A DNA stretch of 64,000 nt, from positions 30,442,001 through 30,506,000 of the forward strand of contig OX485804.1 of NCBI GenBank assembly GCA_950295325.1, given 5' to 3'. This document shows positions 5,582-46,211 of the stretch, in pieces. Numbering within the stretch: position 1 is the first letter of the stretch; each line of letters opens with the position of its first letter. A program made the position numbers and the translations under genes. This DNA is from Polytrichum commune. Taxonomy: Eukaryota; Streptophyta; Polytrichopsida; Polytrichales; Polytrichaceae. Under the pieces are notes generated by a model. That model was given only the letters and a program-made list of their open reading frames with translations. It had not been told where the DNA came from and did not search any database.

Positions 5582-6020
5582 CTATACATTGTTGCATGGT
5601 ACTATGTAATTTAGGTGTACCGACACCCAAGTATAACATTACTCGGCACCAAGTGTTTGTTGAGTATACCCTTAGAATGTAATACCGTTGATAGGCCAGT
5701 TCGACAGTAAGGTGTCGAATAATTAATTTAATTTTTACTTTTTACATTCGACGGATGAAATAATATTTTCATCGAAATTCGACGGATGTGAGTAGTAATT
5801 TCTCATTCATTCGACTGTTCCTAACAAACTGTAACGGAATTGCACGTTTCATGATCATAATTGGTTTGTTCCAAAAATCTACTCAAGAAACTCTAAACCT
5901 TTGAGAGCATTTCCTATATTTGCTTAGGGTTTAGAACACAAACTTTCTACTATAGTGTTTCTCCTCCTTCTGCTGTAGGAAGTCATAGCTTCATAGTTTT
6001 GTGTATGTCAAGTAGGAGCA

Positions 6021-7870
6021 ATGACGCTTGGTGAGAAGAAGCAAACTATGTTGACTTCCATGTTTACTAAGATCTCACATGAGGAGAGAGAGTGTGTTGT
6101 TGCAGAAGAATTTGATCAATTAAAAGCCATAGCTACAACTAAGAAGGAGATTCAAGGAGAAATTGTAGAGAAACGCCAAGTTGGACGCCCAAGGAAAAAT
6201 ACCATGCTTATATGCCCAAGTACAAACAAACAAGAGGAGGAGGAGCATACTGCAAGGAGGAAGAAATCTCAACATTTACAAAAGAAAAGGCATTCATACA
6301 ATATGTGGTTCATCAATGACCTCTTTCTACCAATTCAAGAGGCAGTTAAGAGGTATGGAAGGATACAAGCTGCAATTCACTACTTGGAAATTTCTTTTAG
6401 AACACCTGGAGGTTCTAATCCTTACAAAAAAACTAGGAAGATCAAGTTTATATGACCGGTTTGATTAAAAAAGATAATTACAAGCTAATTACAAGGAAGC
6501 AGCAAACCTAGGACATCACCCAAAGAAACAAGATCAAAACTTGTCAATTCTAGAGAATTACCCCCATGTTCATGATCAACTTGTATCCAAGTTGCAAAAA
6601 ATAAGAAAAGTTGGACAAACTCTCCTCATTTCCATTGTACAACCCATTCTTAGAGGAATGTTTAAGGCTCTTGCTCCTCAACTTCTTGATGATAGACCTG
6701 GATGTTTCACAGTGTCAAGACAATAGACAAATGAATTCATGAAAGTCTATATGAATTGGACAATTAGAAAATGTATTACTGCTGCAAGTAAATTACCATT
6801 AGATTGGATGGAGCAAGGACTTAACATGAATTACATGGTAGCTTACCTTGCTAAAGTTTATGGCATCCCATCATCTCTTGTGGTCAATTCAGACCAAACG
6901 GGTATCCATTTGGTACCTGCAGCAGGGGGTAAAACATGGGATGCAAAAGGTACAAAGATGTCAAAATTTTAGGCATGGAGGACAAAAGGCGGATCACATG
7001 TGTTATGTCCTCTAGTGCTAGTGAAGAGTTTTTGCCAATTCAAGCAATATTCACATGGAAAACAATAAGATGTTTACCAAAACAAAGTGATGAAAAGATT
7101 AAATGCATGGAGGCATGATGGCATTTTACCTTAAGTTTTCTCCAAATCATTGGAGTACACTCCATACCTCTCAACAATTTGTTGAAGAGATTTTAGAGCC
7201 CTACTTGGCTTCCAAGATTATCCTGCACAATCTCCCAAAAGACCAGAAGTTAATATGGTTGATTGACTCATAGTCTGTGCACAAAAGTTCAGAATTTTTG
7301 GATTGGATTAAATCCAAATATGCAAATATCCTAGTGATATTTGTTCCTGCCAATTGTACTTCTAAGCTACATTCAGCTAATGTTATTTTGCAAAGGCCAT
7401 TTAAGCATGCATTTAAGTTAGAATTTCACAATTGGACAGCAACAAAGGTGAAATTACAAATTGAAGCCAATGGAGAACTTGAAGTTGATCTAAGCATGAA
7501 TAACTTGAAACCACACATCCCTGCATGGTTGTTCTCAGCTTGGGCACATGTCAAAAAGATGGAAGCTATGATACAGAAAGGGTGGTAGAAATGTGGGTTT
7601 GAGAGAGTTTTCTTACCTACATTCCAATTGAAGGCAATGGAGGTGAATGTTAAATCTCCTCTCTTTACCGTGAACCATGACTTGAAGGAGAATGTTGAAG
7701 AAGAAGATGTTTCTAATCCAACCATACCACTCATGAATGTGGTTGAAGAATGCTTGGATGCAAATGTTGAAGCACCAACATCATCATTTGTACATGGAGC
7801 AACAACAAATAAGAGAAAGAATACATCTAAAAATATTGACAAGAGAGGTAAACAGAAAACCTTAACCTAG
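6021..7870 (+). pseudogene. Broken pogo/CENP-B-class DDE transposase gene
   Basis: Successive frames give one transposase interrupted by stops and frameshifts. The N-terminus (from 6021) contains a KRQVGRPRKN AT-hook-like motif at about residues 51-60. The middle (6541-6726, 6739-6972) has VVNSDQTGIH with the first catalytic Asp. Then follow LGMEDKRRITCVMSSSASEE (from 6970) and, in a further frame, LID before a stop at 7272 where the second Asp is expected. The block PANCTSKLHSANVILQRPFK (7345-7404) has Asn where family members usually carry the third catalytic Asp. A 200-residue tail runs to the TAG at 7868. Family role: cut-and-paste transposition at TA sites. At least three frame changes plus four in-frame stops make it inactive. 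Element ends were not found. Confidence 0.8.
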
Positions 7871-7929
7871 TGAGTTTTAAGGTAGACATACTTCATAAAA
7901 TAGTTCATTTAGATGTACTATCAAACTAT

Positions 7930-8337
7930 CATTCTAAATCGGTTCATTGCACATCAATTAGAGAAACTCACAGGCGGTCCATCATCACAGAACTCGATCA
8001 CTGCACGAGCTACCACATTCCCCTATACACACATAGAGGTCAATTATCAATGGAAACATTTCAAGAAATCATGTGCACTTGATAAGATCCAAGACATTGT
8101 TCGCCTGGAAGATCACTCCAATGCTCACATTATTCCATTGAATTCCTCAGGTTCTACAGAAACAAATGTCCACAAATGCAATGACAATAAAGTTGCTCTC
8201 TCACAGTACACGACTTTCAGTCAGGAATTGCTTGATTTGCATATAAGACCTTATGTTGGGTAAGTATTTGGTGCATGCTTGTAGATAGTGTGGAGATTTG
8301 AACAAAGAACATTCTAAATCAGTTCATTGCACATCAA
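7930..8337 (+). repeat. 28-bp direct repeat flanking about 350 bp
   Basis: CATTCTAAATCRGTTCATTG followed by CACATCAA is present at 7930-7957 and 8310-8337 with one difference. Between them is an open frame of 116 codons (7913-8263) that matches nothing I recognise. The pair is too long for a target duplication and may be the residue of a local duplication or of solo repeat ends. Confidence 0.5.
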
Positions 8338-8339
8338 AG

Positions 8340-9855
8340 TCAATTTGGCATGCCAGATTGAGTTGCTAAAATGAGTTTGGTCCTTAATGGACTGGAATAG
8401 GTTGGTCTTCGATCAAATTCAAACACTACCTCTGAGCATGCACCGAAGTGGAATCAAAGGGGACCAAATCCTGACAAAGAGTCCCATTGAGTTAGCGGAT
8501 AGCTCTAATATACACTGGCTTATACAACTCAATAATGCAGTTTAGCTGTGAGGAATCATATGGCTTCAAGTGGACTAGAACGAACATACAATTGATAGTT
8601 TAAGGAGATTACTGAAACTTCTGTAATTTATTTTGAAAAATCTACTCAAATGGGTTTGACTTCCGATACCAGTGATAACCATTTCCACCAAACACTTTGG
8701 CATTTATGTGCTAAGCTGAATCACCACTTAAGAAGTGGCAAAGTGATCAGAACAAACACCTGCGATAAACCGACCATGTTGTATCCACCTTTCAGCTCTG
8801 GTATCTCTTTGACCTCTCAAAAAACTTGAGTTGGTCTCCACTTTCAGTGACTTGATGGTTAACTTTGATATCATATTTGGGACCTAATTGTGTGTATCAT
8901 AAGGATATATCAATGAATCTCTCCTAGTCAATAGATTTTGAGGCTCATAAACACATATGTGCCCAAGGGTAATGCAATGTCATTATTTGGGAGTAAGAGA
9001 GATATTTTGATTAGTACCTTGTAATGTAGAATTGACAAAAAAAAAATTTTAGATTCAAATGGTTGCTACCTTAATTTGAAATTGCTAACATCGTTTTCTA
9101 TTAATCGCGTGTTTAATACCCAAGGGGATTAGAAGCAATGGGCTAACCATATGTTGAATAACATAAGGGCTTAGGATATTCAGTTGGATAACTATAAGAC
9201 ATGTCCACCATCTGAATGTAAAGTATACTCAAACACTCAACTTTACGGTATTCAAAATCACTTGCTATTCATCAACATTTTTCAGTTTCTTCTCCACGGT
9301 CTTTTTTCATGGAATAAGTGAAGGATTATTCTTTAATAAACCTCATTGTAATCTCTAACATAAGAATTGTAGTCTAAATTCGAGATCGTTGGAGGAAATA
9401 GATGGACACTCAAAGACTCTCCCTGAAAGAAATGAATTTGTAAAGTCAAGAATAATGCTCCACTATATTGTCACAATCATAAATGAAAGGTTTAACTAGG
9501 AAATTAAGAAACACTACTAGCATACGAGTCCTACGCAATCATCCCACATCGATGAAAGAACAATGCAAGTCTACCATTATGCTAGATTTGCAAAATTTAT
9601 AATTACATGGGGCAAGTTTCTAGTAACATAGGGTCACTTTTAAAATGTTATGTCAATGATACACAATGGTATAGCTTATACATAAAATGTAGGACCCTTC
9701 TTCATTCAAGTCCAACTTTTTCATTCATTGAAGCCTTTTACGTTCTCAAATTATATCCAAACTAGGTATTTGTAAAGTATTTTTTGAATCATTTTAATAA
9801 TAGTAAAATTAGCATTGCATAATTCCAAATGGTACATAACATTATTCAACTACAT
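8340..9855. other. No gene seen
   Basis: AT-rich intergenic DNA without a supported frame, repeat or RNA gene; a short poly-A run is present near 9041. Confidence 0.45.
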
Positions 9856-9859
9856 GGTT

Positions 9860-10080
9860 GTGGTCCATTCTATATTTAGCATCCAACATGGGCGTCCACT
9901 ATCTTACCTTCATGGGAAGAAACTTAGAAAATAAGAAGAAATTGATGCCGGTACTTCTAATGAATAGTGCTTGTTGTATAGTAAGAATATTGTGAAAAGT
10001 GTTGGTATTTCCAATTTTAATGTTGTTATTAATAGTAATTATAGGGAATAATATTGGGATGAACATTCGATGTCACTAAG
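9860..10080 (+). repeat. Dispersed repeat, second copy at 58.2-58.4 kb
   Basis: GGAAGAAACTTAGAAAATAA occurs at 9915 and again at 58258, both preceded by CCACTATCTT and followed by GAAGAAAYTGAT and by similar AATAGT/AATATTRTGAA words up to GATGAACRTT. Similarity covers about 200 bp in the same orientation. The copy at 58 kb begins shortly after the hAT-like MITE. Confidence 0.6.
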
Positions 10081-10266
10081 GCGCTATGAATGGAGGGTGT
10101 GTGGTCGTGGGCAAACCACATCCAAGCTATCCATTCACAGAGCCCCAGCCTATGGTCTACAAAACTGCTCGGGCATCCCCCCAAAAAAAACTTTCAACAG
10201 ATGAAATTTTGGCAGATGAAAAATCAATGTTTGCAAGATGAAGGGGTTGATTGTTCATCCCATCGT

Positions 10267-10376
10267 ATGAGAGCATTTGTGTGGGATTTTGAAGGTTCCC
10301 AAAGGGATCCTGAAGTTCCCAATGGAGCTTACGCAACCCTCTGGGAACCTTCAAAATCCCACACAAACGCTCTCAT
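10267..10376. repeat. 35-bp-arm hairpin
   Basis: The arm 10267-10301 (TATGAGAGCATTTGTGTGGG and onward to GGTTCCCA) is the reverse complement of 10342-10376 with one mismatch. The loop is 40 bp. It is probably a decayed MITE or foldback end. Both strands show short frames here only because of the symmetry. Confidence 0.8.
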
Positions 10377-10432
10377 ATAATCGGTTAAATTTCATTTCAT
10401 TTAAAGGTTGGTCATTAAAAGGGGCTTGTAGC

Positions 10433-10778
10433 CTCGGGGGGGGGCAGTGTGTTAAAAAGTTAAGGATATAGGTGCGAACAACCACTATTTTATAGGGGGG
10501 TATTACTTTCAATTCTCTTTTTTTTTTCACATGCTATCATTATGTAAAATTCTACTTTGGGTTAATAGAAAAATGGCTTGCATTACTTATAATTCCAAAT
10601 TACCTATTATTCCGTACCCTATAGTACTTTAAAGATGTCCAGTGCCATTTTTGATACCCTATATTACTCTTAAGTCCATTTATAATTTTTAGCCCCCATG
10701 TTTTTAAAATACCCTATCATTTGTTCGCACGTATATTGCTACTCCAACCAATGACTACCCCCCCCCCCCCCCCCCCGA
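10433..10778. mobile_element. MITE ending in G/C homopolymers, 9-bp target duplication
   Basis: GCTTGTAGC is duplicated at 10424-10432 and 10779-10787. The element starts CTC plus nine G and ends with nineteen C plus GA, so the termini are inverted repeats made largely of a homopolymer. A second inverted pair inside (GTGCGAACAA near 10471 and TTGTTCGCAC near 10722) supports the same symmetry. Length is 346 bp, non-coding. A 9-bp duplication points to a Mutator-like element. Confidence 0.8.
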
Positions 10779-11320
10779 GCTTGTAGCTAATGGCAAGTAC
10801 CCTTGGTTCTACCTTTTGAGAAGGAAGAGATAGGAGTTCAAACCTCCCCATTGGCATCATCTCCTGCACAAGTCCTTTTGATGAAGGACTTAGTTTGAAA
10901 AAAATCATCCAACATTCATGAGTGGATGGAGGTGGAGATTTCATCCAATGTGAAGTCTTTCAAGCTCTACCTGAGGGGAAGAGAAGCCAGAAGTTGGGGC
11001 AACATAGGAACCTTTAGATTTGTCAGATCGCAATCGACTAGCCCCCGACCACACGGGAGACGTTCTCAGCGTCTCAATGACGCATATGGACAAAGTTTCC
11101 TTTGAATATTCCTTCAATGAACACTAAATCATGTGCACAGTGCCGGGAGCACAACTCCACCCAAATCTCCAAATTTAACCTGAATGTATGAATAATAAAC
11201 GGATATTTCCAGTTTGTTCGAGGGGCCCATGAAATATAATTGACATATTCCAGGGTCATGGAGCCGGTCCACATGGCTAATAGTGTTTAGTGAGACTTGA
11301 CACTAAAGACCATTTTAAAG

Positions 11321-12770
11321 GGCAGACACTAAAGTATACCCATCGAACTTATAGGGGAGCCAGATTCGGGCAGGGGCAGCCGTCCGCCCAAATTTTTTAA
11401 ATATTATGGATCCGACCGAAAACTGCTGCCCGCCCGCCCGACTTCAAAAAAATCATTGCCCTTGCATTCTTGAAGACCACTTATCCACAAATCCCATATT
11501 GAGTGCATTTCACCTTCAAGGTCCAAAATCCAATATATATGTTCACTTCCATTGAGTAAATAAGCGATTGACTGGGATTTCATTTTCAAAATGAAATCGC
11601 CAATAAAGCATGTAAATAACTAGGAAGTCAAAAATATTATAAAACCCTCATTAGCACCGAGGTTATGATTTTTGTGATTTGCCATTGCAAGGGTCTTTGT
11701 CATTCTAAAATGGAAATAAATTAGTGGTTTTATTTTTAGTATGTACAGTATTATAATCTCTTAGTTAATACCTTCTACTTTCACAAAGTTTCCATACACA
11801 TTTAAACTAATTAAGTGTGATTCAATGTAATTAAGTCTAGTTAATTCTAGCATAACACATTTGCAGATATGGATTGAGCGCATAACACATTTTTCAAAAT
11901 GTGGATCTAGTGCATGACACATTCGCAGACCTAGATCCAAATTTACAAACGTGTCATGCACCAGATTCATATTTATAAATACGTCATGCGTCATATTCAT
12001 ATTTACAAATGTGTCATGCATAAGATCCAGATTTACAAATATGTCATGCATCATATTCATATTTACAAATGTGTCATGCGTCATATTCAAATGTGTCATG
12101 CACTAGATCCAGATTTGTGAATGTGTCATGCATCATATTCAAATTTACACTACATCTAGGTCTGCGAATGTGTCATGCACTAGATCCACATTTTGAAAAA
12201 TGTGTTATGCGCTCAATCCATATCTGCAAATGTGTTATGCTAGAATTAACTAGACTTAATTACATTGAATCACACTTAATTAGTTTAAATGTGTATGGAA
12301 ACTTTGTGAAAGTAGAAGGTATTAACTAAGAGATTATAATACTGTACATACTAAAAATAAAACCACTAAATTTATTTCCATTTTAGAATGACAAAGACCC
12401 TTGCAATGGCAAGTCACAAAAATCATAACCTCGGTGCTAATGAGGGTTTTATAATATTTTTGACTTCCTAGTTATTTACATGCTTTATTGGCAATTTCAT
12501 TTTGAAAATGAAATCCCAGTCAATCGCTTATTTACTCAATGGAAGTGAACATATATATTGGATTTTGGACCTTGAAGGTGAAATGCACTCAATATGGGAT
12601 TTGTGGATAAGTGGTCTTCAAGAATGCAAGGGCAATGATTTTTTTGAAGTCGGGCGGGCGGGCAGCAGTTTTCGGTCGGATCCATAATATTTAAAAAATT
12701 TGGGCGGACGGCTGCCCCTGCCCGAATCTGGCTCCCCTATAAGTTCGATGGGTATACTTTAGTGTCTGCC
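11321..12770. mobile_element. Large foldback element FB-1, about 600-bp near-perfect arms, 9-bp target duplication
   Basis: The element starts GGCAGACACTAAAGTATACC and ends with the reverse complement. The flanking 9-bp duplication is ATTTTAAAG (11312-11320 and 12771-12779). The arms are so alike that the same 61-codon frame appears on the minus strand at 11404-11589 and on the plus strand at 12502-12687 with identical translation. The arms extend to about 11940 and 12170, and the loop is a 30-bp minisatellite. Mutator-like foldback elements have 9-bp duplications; no transposase is encoded. A transcript through it would form a hairpin of several hundred base pairs, a likely siRNA source (inference). 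Its inner arm sequence is shared with FB-2 at 17616-18306. Confidence 0.9.
11940..12110. repeat. 30-bp minisatellite in the loop of FB-1
   Basis: The hexamer TCATGC recurs at 11954, 11984, 12014, 12044 and 12074, exactly 30 bp apart, inside units of the type ATTTACAAATGTGTCATGC. Degenerate units continue into both arms (CATAACACATTT at 11881, TGTCATGCACTAG at 12172). Because 30 is a multiple of three, the minus strand stays open as ten-residue repeats (THDTFVNMNM type), but nothing suggests it is translated. Confidence 0.85.
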
Positions 12771-13050
12771 ATTTTAAAGAGCATAGTAGATGCCCGCACA
12801 GTAGTGTGACACATAAGGACATGACAAGTCTTCTCCGTACTTTGACATGTCTACAGTCAACTCTTTAGGCTACAACTATGCGTCACAGGGACCCCATTCT
12901 TGATTCTAATGATGTAGGAATGACTAACCATGTTGCATACCTTGCGACCCTGACAAACTTAGTCTGCACTTCACATTATAATATTATCATAAAGTGGTGG
13001 ATTCATTGAATATGCTATGTTTTCGGCACCCCTTCGTCATGATACAAACA

Positions 13051-13058
13051 TATAAATA
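13051..13058 (+). promoter_or_regulatory. Candidate TATA box of the kiwellin gene
   Basis: TATAAATA lies about 280 bp before the chosen start codon and is the best TATA match in the 5' flank. It would give a 5' leader of about 250 nt. A weaker alternative is TATATTAT near 13244. Assignment rests on motif and position only. Confidence 0.35.
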
Positions 13059-13328
13059 AATCTCAGTCCTATCGACTTTGTAACATATCCACAGCTGTGC
13101 CTAGCTCCCCTCCAAGTTTTAAGCGTGTGTCTTCCTGCTTCTTGATCCATTCTTGGCATTGGCCTGCTTTGGCTGATCACAGTGTGAGATTTTAGAATGT
13201 TGTTGTTGTCTGTTCTGGCCAACGACCTGTCTTAGATTCTGGTATATTATTGTCTTTCGGAACCCGAGCAAGTGGGTTTTTGACATCGAGTTATTACCGG
13301 CGTGCGACTTAGCGCTAAACTCTTCACC

Positions 13329-15375
13329 ATGGAGACATGGGGAGCCAGTTTTACAGTGCCGCACATGATTCTTTGTTTCCTACTGGGAGTGCTCCTGCTC
13401 GGGAGTGAATTAAGCACAGCAATTAGCGGTTGCAACCAGCAATGCAGCACCGGCAACGACTGTCAGGGGCAGCTGACTTGCATCAGCAACAAATGCAACG
13501 ATGATCCTTCTGTGGGGACACACATTTGTGGAGGTAAGTAACACTAGTATCTCTAAAGTAGGTTATTTAGATATATATAAGGAGCGTCAAGGATGTAGAG
13601 TTATTACTCAATGCATGGTTCAAATGTATATATAAGACATATCTTTTATATAAGTTTTGCAAGTACTACTGGGCCCATTCTGAATCTGAAAATGCCCTAA
13701 TTAAGTTGCCGCCACACACAGCTTGATGCAAGTTTGGTGGGCCAAGGTAAAAGCCTAATATGAACCTTTACATGGGCATGAGACGGATGTGGAGCTTTGT
13801 CTCAAGGTTGGTTCCTCCTTTCTTTGCATCGATTTTTCGAGGTTTGAATCCAAACTTGTAGAAGCTGAAGTCCGTTGTCTATCAATTCAAGTTCAGGCTT
13901 CAACTTAAAATCAATCCGGAAAAAGGAGGAATTTCAAAGCTCCACCGTTTTGAGGCACCTTGGCCCACTAAACTTGCAAGCTTGAGCCCAGCTTGAGCTT
14001 GACGTGAAGGCCCGGTCACACATATTGCTCATTGAAACACATGTGAGGGTCCAAATTCTTTTAGCTTGGCCCGCTAAACTTGTAAGCTTGAGGCCCAACT
14101 CATATTGTGGTGGAGCCCTTTTCTGGATGGATTTTCAAGTTCAAGCCCGAATTGCAAGGCGTGGCATCCCCATGGGCAATGATCTTGAGTTTCTTCATCA
14201 CAAATACCAAAAAAACCGTCAATAGTAATCTGATGCTTTGTTACAGCTCCCCCTTGCAAGGAAATTGTAGCTGACAAACGTAGATGCTCTTCATTTATGC
14301 TTGGTCCGATAGGAGCGGACATTTCTACGTATCTTGATGATGTTGCACGCCAAACTTGCAAGCACCTTGAGGTTGAGCTCAAGTTGCAAATGTGTGCGAA
14401 TCCCATGGACAATCATCATGACAAAATTTCTTCACAAAATCTCAGGACAGGCCTCAAAATTAAGATTAATGCTTTGCATCTCTTGGACCATTAATGGCCA
14501 CAGTAGCCTATGGATGCCAAAGGGACTCTTCGTAAAGACTTGATCTTTGTTCTGTTCTTTGAAATTTGTCCGTTATTTAGTAGCATCCACTCCTGTGAGG
14601 TGACACTTACATTATGGTCCACGTAATGGCCACCGCACACAGTCTTCATGCGGTGGAGTGCCCTGCGAGATTGTGCATTCCAGGGTTTTCAAGCACATGC
14701 CCGCAGGCTCGCTCCCGCCTCAGATAGTGCCCTCAACTCATGGAATGGCTCCCCTCATAGCAATCCCTCTACATTCATGCTTGCTCCAGTAGAAGATGAT
14801 ATCCCTGACGACACAAATGCATCTATCTTGACACTTTGCTCTCCCCGTCCACAGGAAGCCCGCCTCCTCCTAGCTCCAGCGGCGACACCTGCACGCCTTA
14901 CCAATACAAGAGTTGGGCCACAGTCCCCTCGGGTTGCAACACGGGCCAAATGTCCAACTGCTGCAAACCCGGACAAAAATACGCCCTCTACAAATGCTCC
15001 CCCAAGGTGACCTCCGCCACCAAGGCCATCCTCACACTCAACAGCTTCGAGGCCGGCGGCTCCGGCGGGGCGGCGTCGGCGTGCGACGGGCAGTTCCACA
15101 ACGACCAAGGGAAGTGGGTGGCCCTGTCGACGGGGTGGTACAATGGCGGAAGCCGGTGCTTGAAGAAGATCCGCATCAACGGGAACGGAAGGAGCACCAC
15201 GGCGACGGTGGTCGACGAATGCGATAGCCAACATGGGTGCGATTCGGACCACGCGTATCAACCCCCCTGCCCTTACAACGATGTGGATGCGTCGCCGGCG
15301 GTGTGGACGGCGTTAGGGGTGTCCTCCAGCGACGACCAATATGGCATGATGGACATTACATGGTCCGATGCCTAA
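13329..15375 (+). CDS. Kiwellin (secreted ripening/defence-related protein), two exons
   Basis: Exon 1 is 13329-13533 and exon 2 is 14855-15375, joined by a phase-1 GT-AG intron (donor GTAAGTA, acceptor CCACAG); the product is 241 aa. An in-frame Met lies nine codons upstream (13302); the second Met is preferred because it directly precedes a signal peptide with core [13 protein letters not shown] (about residues 11-23). The mature protein begins with a Cys-rich module (CNQQC, NDCQG, CISNKC), then a Pro/Ser linker ([10 protein letters not shown]), then the double-psi beta-barrel domain with [15 protein letters not shown] and the terminal DITWSDA. Kiwellins are apoplastic; maize KWL1 inhibits the secreted chorismate mutase of a smut fungus. 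Exon 2 is much more GC-rich than its surroundings. Two decayed copies lie downstream, and a MITE abuts the stop codon. Confidence 0.93.
13718..13985. repeat. Inverted-repeat element in the kiwellin intron
   Basis: GCAAGTTTGGTGGGCCAAGG (from 13729) pairs with CCTTGGCCCACTAAACTTGC (ending 13978), and further inner blocks (GTGGAGCTTTG / CAAAGCTCCACC, CCTCC / GGAGG) continue the symmetry. Related words CTTGGCCCGCTAAACTTGTA at 14063 and AACTTGCAAGC at 14354 suggest fragments of a second copy. This is likely an old MITE that lengthened the intron to 1321 bp. No target duplication was resolved. Confidence 0.6.
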
Positions 15376-15899
15376 GGGCCACTTCACACACGAGCCAAGA
15401 GCCGCGACCATGAGATTGGGAGAGCCCAAAAGGAAGGAAAGTGTCCAAAGGCCGTCCCAACACACCTCCCAAGTCATCTAGTGCGGTCACGGACCCTCAA
15501 GTGTAGTGTGACGTCATATGTGATTGGCCCCTCAACCAAATGCTACTTCAATGAGTTTCTATTCACGCAGGTCCTCACACATGATAAAAAAAATAAAAAT
15601 ACATCAACAGTTGTGAGCGTTCGGAGTGCCATGGTCTCCCAATAGTTTTGTGTTAGACCTAACTCCAAGAAATGGTTTTTGAATATAATCCAAGTGACCA
15701 TGAAACATGATACAATCGATGTCATGTAGGAATCCATGTAAACATTACATCCATCTTGCATTCACTCATATACTCCGTTGGTCCCTCATTTGTTGTGTGA
15801 ATCGAACTTGGACTGGCTCCGCCTTTTCCACCAAGGAGAGTGCTTGAAGTGTAATAGTCACGGACTCACGGGCTCTCAGTCTTGTGTGTGAAGTGGCCC
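15376..15899. mobile_element. Tourist/Harbinger-like MITE inserted at the kiwellin stop codon
   Basis: The element begins GGGCCACTTCACACACGAG and ends CTTGTGTGTGAAGTGGCCC (reading to 15899), giving about 19-bp inverted ends, longer with mismatches (CAAGAGCC / GGGCTCTC). The target duplication is TAA: the kiwellin stop codon at 15373-15375 and 15900-15902. GGGCC termini with a TAA/TTA duplication are the hallmark of PIF/Harbinger Tourist MITEs. The related downstream copy reads GATGCCTAGGTGTGAGAAT at 16433, the same context without the insert, so it serves as an empty-site control. The interior is non-coding. Confidence 0.85.
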
Positions 15900-16280
15900 T
15901 AAGTGTAGTGTAGTGAGAATTTTGCCAAATTGCGGTCTCCACATGGGATTCAAGTCAACTTGAATGATGGATTTGTAACTGTTTAGTTCAAGTAAAGGCA
16001 TGATAACTATTAAAAAAACATGTCAAAGACTATGAAAAAGGGTGACCCATGACACAACTTTTAGTACGCCTTATTGTGGTTGGACGCACCAAGCAATGTC
16101 AGCAATGTAGCAAATCTTCAAATATGGATCGTATTCAAAAAATAATCCGAGGACATTGCAAGGTTGATGAGGAATAATTGTTGTATGATTGTTGAAAAAA
16201 TCACGACCATTTCATATGCTGATGCATGATGGGTTCGTAACGGTTTTCAAACTTTCAATCTTTTGGTCTCCGGTTTTTCA

Positions 16281-16440
16281 ATCTCCCGAAAGGAGCACTT
16301 CTGTCATGGTGTTGGTTGAATGTGACTCTCTCCATGGGTGTGATCCTGATAAAACGGATCAACCCCCCATCCAAACGGCCTTGGTATATATCAACAACCA
16401 ATATAATGGCATGATAAAAATCACATGGTCTGATGCCTAG
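16281..16440 (+). pseudogene. Decayed kiwellin copy, 3' end of exon 2
   Basis: The frame ending at the TAG 16438-16440 reads ERSTSVMVLVECDSLHGCDP, then a shortened segment, then NNQYNGMIKITWSDA. This matches the end of the intact kiwellin ([20 protein letters not shown] and [14 protein letters not shown]) but lacks the [14 protein letters not shown] stretch, roughly 12-14 residues. The 5' part of exon 2 and exon 1 are missing. Many differences are C-to-T or G-to-A relative to the GC-rich parent, as expected for methylated, decaying duplicates. It is unlikely to be functional. Confidence 0.85.
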
Positions 16441-16795
16441 GTGTGAGAATCTTGCCGAATTTTCATTCTATGTGTGATTTGAGTGGGTACCAAGCAATGT
16501 AAGAGTGCCACATGGAAAAACTTCAAATAGGAATCAAGTTATGTGACACAAATGTAGTCCAAGGACATACGCTGCAACCTGTTAATGATGATATTTGATT
16601 GTTGCATAGTCGTTGAGAAAAACAAGTCCAAATTCTATTGCAAAAGGGCTTGAAAAGCATTTGGTAATTGGCATTGGAAGGTATTTGCAATATATTTTAT
16701 GTGGGTTTGTCTAACTATCATGCATGATGGGTGGTGTAATATATGAGTGATGTGTGATGGGTTTGTAACATCTTTTGGTCTTTTGGTCTTTTGGA

Positions 16796-16895
16796 AGCAT
16801 CGCCACACGGCTGCCGTGTTGGTGGATGCATGTGACCTTAACCATTGTTACGGTTTGGATAACTTGTATCAGCTCCCATGTCCCTAAGTTACAAT
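16796..16895 (+). pseudogene. Second decayed kiwellin fragment
   Basis: The frame from 16808 reads TAAVLVDACDLNHCYGLDNL followed by YQLPCP and a stop. It corresponds to the [20 protein letters not shown] and QPPCP segment of the intact gene. Only about 26-30 residues are recognisable. Together with the 16281 copy and the repeated flanks it shows that kiwellin was once a tandem array here. Confidence 0.7.
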
Positions 16896-16999
16896 GATAT
16901 GAAACACTCGATAAATATGAGATGGTTAACAAATTGAAATCAAGGTTGTACCCACTTTTCTCTATGATATATCTTCATTTTCAAAGCTTGTTTGTATGT

Positions 17000-17155
17000 C
17001 TTATTCATTATCGAAGTGAAGATTGTCGTGCTCATTAATTAAATGATCATATAGATCCCCCACTTATGTTGACTATTGAGTCTCGCATGGTTATTTTAAT
17101 TCAAGCACATAGTCCGATCTCTTTTGAACACTTGTCTTTTTGGTATATGTACTTG
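17000..17155 (+). repeat. Dispersed repeat family R1 (first of at least six members)
   Basis: The core is CTTATTCATTATCNAAGTGA, then GCTCATNAA, GATCAT, CCACTTATG and AATCTCTTTTGAACA. Members in the same orientation occur near 31837, 37255 (3' part), 44690 (3' part), 56133 and 63928 (cut by the window end). The 3' end of several members is TCTTAGATCCACACCTAA followed by AAATATAGGTGTCC. No coding capacity was seen. Confidence 0.6.
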
Positions 17156-17615
17156 AAGCTACACCAAACCACATATCACATAAATATAGATTTCCTAATA
17201 ATAAAAAGTAACGGAATAGGGGTTGTCTACCTTAGGCAAGAATTTTGTCGAAGATTGATCTTCACATGGGATACCAAACAATATAAGAGTGTCACATGAT
17301 AAAGATTGAAGAATAAGCTTCATCACAAGTCGAATAAGGAAGCCCTCTATGGACTAGGTAAAAAATGCGAAAGTCCCCCAAAGGGCTATAGTAGGTGCCC
17401 AACCTCCTAAGCCATGATAACAACGAGATAGATCTTGGGGTGCCTACTACAGTTGATGGCAAGGCAACACGTGTTCTTGCAACGATATGTGATTCGATTC
17501 TCTTTCTTCTCACCAACTTAAATTGATCTAAATATGAAAAACTTTAAGGTCGTTTTAAACCATCCTTGAAATAGCTGTCTAACATGATAGAACCATGGCT
17601 AGGGTGAACCGGCAC

Positions 17616-18306
17616 CTACACTCGTACCTTCGGGGGATGAAGGCCTCGCGGATGACACTGAAAACTTCATCCTTCTTTATGGGGAAGCCCGCTTGACTAC
17701 AAATCCCATATTGAGTGCACTTCGCCTTCAAGGTCTAAAATCCAATATATATATGTGCACTTCCAATTAGTAAATAAGCAATTCATTGGGATTTCATTCC
17801 GGAAGTCAAAACCATCAATGAAGCATGTAATCAACTTGGAGGTCAAATAAAATTACAAAATCCTCATTAACATTGAGGTTATAATTTTTTTGACTTACCA
17901 TTTGAAATTCTCTTTGTCATTCTAAAATGACACTTAAATTTAGTGTGCTGATTTAGTATGTATATTTTATAATATTTTAATAACGCCGCCTACTTTCACA
18001 AGTATTCATACATAAATAAATAAATAAATAACTACTGGAATTAATTAATTAATTAAATGTAATTAATTAAGTGTTTATTTGACCTCCAAGTTGATTACAT
18101 GCTTCATTGATGGTTTCACTTCCAGAATGAAATCCCAATGAATTGCTTATTTACTAATTGGAAGTGCACATATATATTGGATTTTAGACCTTGAAGGCGA
18201 AGTGCACTCAATATGGGATTTGTAGTCAAGCGGGCTTCCCCATAAAGAAGGATGAAGTTTTCAGTGTCATCCGCGAGGCCTTCATCCCCCGAAGGTACGA
18301 GTGTAG
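17616..18306. mobile_element. Foldback element FB-2, same family as FB-1
   Basis: Left CTACACTCGTACCTTCGGGG is matched by right CCCCGAAGGTACGAGTGTAG. The arms include GATGAAGGCCTCGCGGATGA and AAATCCCATATTGAGTGCAC with their reverse complements at 18205-18290, and are about 290 bp long. The loop holds (AAAT)n and TTAATTAATTAA runs (18012-18065). The inner arm (CAAATCCCATATTGAGTGCA, AAAATCCAATATATAT, TGGGATTTCATT, AAGCATGTAA) is clearly homologous to the inner arm of FB-1, whereas the outer ends differ. No clean target duplication was found. Confidence 0.85.
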
Positions 18307-19846
18307 TGTTGATTCACACTTGCAATTACTATGTCCAAGAAGCAAGAGGAATAATTCCGATGTTCGCCGAGGACTGGAGCGAATTCAGCAGTGTTTGTTC
18401 ATAATAAATCAAATCATCAATGACAGGTGACATTCGAAGGGCATCTACACAGACTAAAGAAGAATGAGAACGTCAAACTCCAGGTTCTCCATCAGGATTT
18501 CTCCAGTTGGGTTTCAACTTTGCAAACCCTAGTATGCTAAGTCAACTTGAACTTCTTGGAGGTTTCTGATTAGTATTTCTGCAATGCTGAAACGACATGA
18601 CTTGTAATCTAGTATATCAAATCATTCTTGCATTCTTGCAGCGCTAGATTCTGATGTCAGGTAGGAGTTCAGTGCATCAGTAAAGAAGGTTTATGCATCA
18701 GTGAATGCAATTTCCAAACAGGTGTGCACACAGAGTACCAATTACACACCAGGATTGTCACTTTTGGAATGGCTATTCGAAGGTTACAACCGCAATTAGG
18801 TTGTTGGTGAGTATGGGGAACGTAAGCTCCTTCGATTGACAGATGCTTTGCAATTTGCTCACAATTAATTCTTTTATGCTTCAGCCTAGGATATGAACAC
18901 TCCGTGAATGAACTAGGACACAATGGTGTAGTCATTTCGTTTCACCCTACACATTTAATGCTCCAGATTTAATAGAAACAAGGATCGTAAGCTAGGACGT
19001 AGCTTAGCAAGTTAATCTGTTGTCTGCAGGTTTAAAAGTGGAATACGTGCATCTGTGAGGTAAATAAATAATTTCAAACAGAGATGCAAACAGAGTACTG
19101 AGATTCATCATTCCTCAAATTTGACAATTAGGTACTGAGAATGACTACGAACTGACATTTGCTTTCCAAACATTGCTCACATTTAGTACCAATAGGGTGG
19201 AGAAACTCGCTGTTCGGTCCAGGTGATTGAATTCTTCATGCATGCAATCTGATACAATCGAGGCTTGGATCTTATATACCACACATCCAAGGGTCCAATA
19301 TGTAATTCGCACAGGAGGGAATTCGTAAAACATCATCATCAACTCTACTAATGAAGTCTAGTGATCCTTCTTCACCAATTTGCGAAGACTACTCCTCATA
19401 TCGCTACAAATAGGGACGAGGACTTGCAAGCAGATGTGGTGCAGCAGGTCGAGAGGAAGATATCATCAGGACGCCATGCAATGATCGCAGGGGAGAAATA
19501 ATGTTTCTTCAGAAAGTGGTTATGAAGAGAGTGCAAAGAAACAGAGGGTTCAAAAGTCGGCGATCCAGGAACCACAATCTTGATCTCTCTAGTAGATAAT
19601 GGTGGCTCCAAACAGGATCATCGTCATCACAAATTTAGTTATTCTCAGCAATCCTTTCCTGTTCATCAGAATCCAGATAGAATAGGATCATCATCATGTT
19701 CGTTTGTCTTTCGCTTACTGTACAAAGAGAGATCTCCGAATCATAAGAGTCTGGAGATCACGTCACCGCAAGTGGCCATGGAGATTGCAATACTTAGGGT
19801 TATAAGCTATCATCGACACACTTGAGCGGCATCATCCTATGCAATT
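18307..19846. other. Intergenic, weak duplicated segment
   Basis: No gene seen. The stretch around 18697-18890 (TTTCCAAACAGGTGTGCACA, ACAGAGTACC, TTGCTCACAATTA) resembles 19047-19190 (TTTCAAACAGAGATGCAAAC, AGAGTACTGAG, TTGCTCACATTTA), suggesting an old tandem duplication of about 350 bp. Confidence 0.4.
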
Positions 19847-46133: not shown

Positions 46134-46211
46134 GGTAATCGTTTTATTGGAACCGGTTATCGGTGCAGAACCGGTTCTGCACCGATAACCGGTTCCAATA
46201 AAACGATTACC
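46134..46211. repeat. Perfect 78-bp palindrome without spacer
   Basis: Every base from 46134 to 46211 pairs with its mirror position around 46172/46173. The centre is GCAGAACCGGTTCTGC and the arms contain GGAACCGGTTATCGG. A perfect, spacerless palindrome of this size can extrude a cruciform. It lies in a GC-rich island within AT-rich DNA. Confidence 0.95.

Follow-up and report, generated by a model that had tools for sequence, protein, structure and literature searches.

A Tourist-like element abutting the TAA stop of a kiwellin gene in Polytrichum commune

The kiwellin gene and the element behind it

The 64-kb stretch of Polytrichum commune DNA analysed here (hereafter the window) belongs to contig C2 in a genome of 408 Mb and carries a kiwellin gene on its forward strand. 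In the predicted gene model, whose splice sites were placed by eye from the sequence, exon 1 (13329-13533) begins with ATG, would encode a hydrophobic leader and a Cys-rich N-terminal part, and has a frame (METWGAS...THICGG) that ends at the donor GGAG/GTAAGT; the last coding exon, exon 2 (14855-15372), follows the acceptor CCACAG/GA. Joined, the two exons encode 241 aa with no internal stop codons. Exon 2 matches the Pfam KWL1 profile (PF24300) with an E-value of 2.4e-55 and 187.7 bits (curated cut-off 27) over profile positions 45-202 of 202, and aligns to solved kiwellins up to residue 188/189 in PDB 4x9u and 4pmk (the matches to PDB 6fpg and PDB 6ti2 end at 166/175 and 192/199, respectively). 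Adding exon 1 left the start of the Pfam match unchanged at profile position 45, its leader and Cys-rich stretch being recognised by eye. The frame is intact at present and ends in TAA at 15373-15375, and because the Pfam match reaches the last profile position, this TAA is most likely the ordinary terminus of a gene that is intact.

The genome yielded no other intact kiwellin gene that could have served as an empty site: a protein search returned the window locus only, and a search with the KWL1 profile returned the window locus and one sub-threshold match (E 0.74). These searches also missed a decayed paralogue lying 1 kb downstream, and other decayed copies are thus possible.

Directly after the stop codon begins a 524-bp Tourist-like MITE (15376-15899, forward strand), delimited by alignment to 41 other genomic copies. 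Its terminal inverted repeats, placed by end comparison and copy alignment, occupy 15376-15394 (forward strand) and 15881-15899 (reverse strand) and read GGGCCACTTCACACACGAG and CTTGTGTGTGAAGTGGCCC, that is, 19 nt with one mismatch and outermost GGGCC...GGCCC; the inverted arms of 23 nt that were computed take in flanking bases. TAA recurs at 15900-15902 on the forward strand, identical to the upstream TAA, and the kiwellin stop and this triplet form the two copies of the target duplication. The first-pass annotation of the locus had placed the stop, the element and the second TAA at these same positions, and all three were confirmed. The kiwellin stop is now separated by 524 bp from its old 3' flank (15903-16160, forward strand), identified by its colinear resemblance to the sequence flanking the decayed paralogue; the first-pass annotation overstated this separation in taking the entire 3' UTR as replaced.

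The window holds further inverted repeats. A near-perfect palindrome of ~1.49 kb upstream of kiwellin exon 1 (11313-12778; 92% identical to its own reverse complement, arms of ~0.73 kb) looks like a fold-back element, and parts of it match 17684-18238, where an inverted pair (17595-17851 and 18074-18326) shows 95% identity. A 78-bp perfect self-inverted stretch at 46134-46211 is possibly a simple repeat.

Copies, ends and superfamily of the element

The genome search for the element gave 44 matches, comprising the window copy, 41 other long copies and 2 short ones (40 of 5001 candidates scored), and the 39 regions fetched contain all 41 other long copies. Among these, 36 align over the full positions 1-524; three (L012, L013 and L035) are 1-2 bases short, one (L005) is without the first 9 bases and one (L011) without the last 32. 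The 40-bp outer flanks of the 36 full-length copies are unrelated to each other (mean pairwise identity 26%, maximum 50%). The ends of the MITE are therefore real, since 36 of 41 copies reach both of them and the flanks are unrelated, and a larger element or wrongly placed ends were ruled out on the same grounds; copies running past the proposed ends, which the first-pass annotation had named as evidence against its reading, were not seen among these. The copies read are ~476-524 bp long, and the 41 other copies are 93.6-97.3% identical to their own majority sequence. An exact search for the 19-nt end gives 4167 occurrences in the genome (2086 and 2081 times on the two strands; 0 times for the reversed control), and at 1478 of the genomic sites TAA stands directly before it. 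Two loci, L014 (C6:14278354-14279563) and L032 (C1:20339346-20340604), hold two adjoining MITE copies each, and at L014 only TAATTA separates the two.

A search for other TAA-flanked copies, proposed with the original description, thus revealed a family: identical TAA/TAA or TTA/TTA triplets flank 19 of the 36 full-length copies, TGA/TGA and TCA/TCA one each, and unequal triplets, which decay would explain, the remaining 15. Harbinger elements are characterised by a 3-bp TAA/TTA duplication and terminal inverted repeats of the form GG(G/C)CC (PMC4423477; PMC2213677), about 14-25 bp long in PIF/Harbinger Tourist-like elements (PMC2213677, PMC4423477), and the window element, with its 3-bp TAA duplication and 19-nt GGGCC repeat, matches both marks. 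The motif G(N)5GTT is absent from the repeat, where GGGCCACTT reads CTT; in the source consulted, this motif appears as a mining filter in Medicago and not as a stated definition of the superfamily (PMC2213677). Being short, present in many homogeneous copies and without a transposase, the 524-bp element qualifies as a MITE.

The PIF/Harbinger DDE transposase domain has at least 150 matches above the cut-off in the genome; the MITE itself is absent among the 150 best matches listed. At 19 loci of 7 kb each, picked from these 150, no transposase gene lay between a pair of MITE-family ends. At one of them (L132), ~2 kb past the transposase match, stands a lone sequence resembling an end (1 mismatch) that has no partner; four others (L131, L133, L135 and L137) have weak end-like matches with 4-5 mismatches, and a further one (L122) carries a pair of ends flanked by TTA that differ in sequence from those of the MITE. 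The element is thus best described as a non-autonomous element of probable PIF/Harbinger (Tourist-like) type, an assignment drawn from its duplication and ends and not from a parent element, with the type of transposase being putative.

Probable insertion into the stop codon

The 3' part of the decayed kiwellin paralogue (16287-16440, forward strand) has no insert at its stop, and its sequence matches across the kiwellin junction without the element (56/76, E 8e-9). When the flanks alone were compared (15903-16160 versus 16440-16620), the score was 33.0, whereas 1000 shuffles reached 28.5 at most (mean 18.1, sd 2.8) and the first 258 bases of the MITE scored 14.0; the best stretch, at ~16072-16160, is colinear and lies away from the junction itself. 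These comparisons support the view that the flank after 15902 was formerly joined to the kiwellin stop. The first-pass annotation had used the paralogue as an internal empty-site control, and this stands for the join but not for the exact target, because the stop of the paralogue is TAG (16438-16440), in the reading GCC TAG GTG with 8 bases missing close to it, so that no TAA is seen at the empty target. That the target was TAA is indicated instead by TAA on both sides of the MITE, which argues against a TAG ancestor. Besides the paralogue, the kiwellin 3' flank recurs in diverged form at 16748-16794 and 17239-17281, which suggests that 16287-17300 holds the decayed members of an old tandem array whose only intact survivor is the kiwellin gene itself.

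We conclude that, as originally proposed, the TAA stop of the intact kiwellin gene was very probably the target of a Tourist-like element, whose insertion duplicated it. A PIF/Harbinger-type transposase targeting TAA/TTA and duplicating the 3 bases would leave the element bracketed by two TAA copies, the first of which would remain the in-frame stop, so that the protein would be the same in either orientation of the element. By construction, a TWA-duplicating insertion into any TAA stop leaves the protein unchanged, and the stop is kept automatically because TAA is a preferred target of this kind of element and is duplicated on insertion.

Two other readings of the junction were weighed against this one. 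An in-frame TWA insertion anywhere places a TAA at its own edge, and the present stop could for this reason be a premature one, made when the element entered an upstream coding or intronic TAA of a once longer frame. This is highly improbable, as the profile is used to 202/202, leaving no residue of the family that could lie further on, the structural alignments to 4x9u and 4pmk run to the last residue but one, and the paralogue DNA carries a TAG stop at the matching codon; the premature-stop reading was accordingly rejected, with the extent of the Pfam match deciding. Nor is it at all likely that the element comes from a different DNA transposon superfamily that also duplicates 3 bp (e.g. CACTA-type), the TAA being incidental. 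The lack of a transposase between paired MITE-family ends at the 19 loci read and the two copies of 36 with duplicated TGA or TCA would fit such an origin; the ends, however, are GGGCC instead of CACT(A/G), TAA/TTA strongly predominates in the duplication, TCA/TGA is tolerated by mPing too (PMC4561436, as far as that source was available), and in the part of PMC6850418 consulted the mJing-like copies of rice have TAA/TTA in 67%. Both the Tourist-like identity of the element and the kiwellin stop as its target, with the frame kept, were thus upheld.

Target preference, possible effects and known systems

The window contains 2469 TWA sites in its 64 kb. Assuming 2000-8000 copies of the element and 6000-15000 TAA stops per genome, 0.8-7.6 stop-codon insertions per genome are expected by chance, and one event of the kiwellin type needs no special explanation because it falls within this expectation. 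The kiwellin insertion is well supported but ordinary, an event of a familiar type that is to be expected.

The family prefers C before TAA. A survey of the first 80 of 100 places listed from the 1478 exact TAA-plus-repeat sites, all on contig C1 and 2 of them elements already among the 41 copies, found C before TAA in 47/80 flanks versus 497/2469 (20%) of the window TWA sites (p 4e-14). The kiwellin site itself reads GCC-TAA-G, and among the 19 copies with an intact duplication C precedes TAA in 10 and G follows it in 7, with both in 1. The extended target of maize PIF is CWCTTAGWG. The C-TAA preference, which stops of the form NNC-TAA satisfy, together with an AATAAA kept in one strand of the element and the protein-silent nature of the kiwellin insertion, could mean that targeting or selection favours stop-codon insertions by this family, which would give genes new 3' ends. 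We consider this quite unlikely. None of the 80 TAA-side flanks has an in-frame open stretch of at least 80 codons, versus 4 and 2 in the control frames, and stretches of at least 40 codons are as frequent in frame (10/80) as in the controls (10 and 9), with no Pfam match (E up to 0.1) for these 10 flanks; moreover, the single kiwellin case fits chance. In the first set of copies, 29 flanks read TAA; 28 of these could be read over 32 codons, and 6 stayed open over the whole distance. No further convincing stop-codon insertion was found among the 80 TAA-side flanks on C1, in a survey that would miss short last exons.

The element could nevertheless matter for the gene it abuts. Only after the element, with its sense AATAAA and a sequence that could fold into a long hairpin, would the kiwellin transcript reach the old 3' flank. 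The AATAAA inside the MITE (15592-15597, forward strand) is a candidate poly(A) signal, 37 of the 41 other copies also have an AATAAA between element positions 170 and 240, and the predicted MITE RNA fold is strong (-157 kcal/mol, z -3.46, 0/100 shuffles as good). It is plausible, judging from sequence, that the MITE affects the end of the kiwellin transcript, and translation may be influenced as well. The window copy is 91.2% identical to the majority of the 41 others, differs at 44 of 499 aligned sites and has five insertions of 3-8 bases relative to that majority. Of its 44 differences, 18 are shared with no more than one other copy and 26 with at least two; the corresponding averages for the other copies are 10.6 and 12.1. 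The window copy appears to be either an older copy or a member of a distinct subgroup, and its age is not directly readable from these values.

These observations indicate that a target duplication can protect the gene that is struck: an insertion into a TAA stop is protein-silent and could act only on the 3' end. They also yield a prediction that can be counted in any annotated plant genome, namely stop-codon hits by TWA duplicators versus those by 2-bp, 8-bp and 9-bp duplicators. A broader possibility starts from TAA stops as the only coding target that any TWA-duplicating transposon could hit in either orientation with the protein unchanged: via the C-TAA preference and the built-in sense AATAAA, Tourist-like elements would recurrently swap gene 3' ends in one step, with kiwellin as the first example. 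We regard this recurrent swapping as unlikely.

A MITE in a stop codon is named in no title or abstract opening that we found, which does not imply its absence from print, and likewise no title or abstract opening on kiwellin and transposable elements concerned such an insertion. The stop-codon passages in the available part of PMC4423477 concern transposase frames. Tourist elements of sugar beet are reported as enriched in 3' UTRs (PMC12804786, seen in part), a tendency that the window element, lying in or near a 3' UTR, fits; the term 'stop codon' is absent from the main text of that study. According to the portion of PMC5338036 consulted, a MITE in the 3' UTR of rice Ghd2 represses translation, and it resembles the window MITE in following the stop codon of a gene that is intact and in that inverted-repeat RNA is possible; the Ghd2 element, however, is of Stowaway type and the mapped transcript end lies 340 nt past it, whereas the window MITE directly abuts the stop. 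The element is also like the rice Tourist-like MITEs mPing and mJing, which, as described in the sections available (PMC4561436, PMC6850418), are non-autonomous, have G-rich ends and duplicate 3 bp that are mostly TAA/TTA, about a third of mJing-like duplications departing from these triplets (PMC6850418); the window element differs from both in its own terminal sequence and in its copies of ~476-524 bp. Their consequences can also differ: the mJing insertion in exon 6 of a rice gene led to a premature stop (PMC6850418), whereas the window element left the kiwellin end as it was before.
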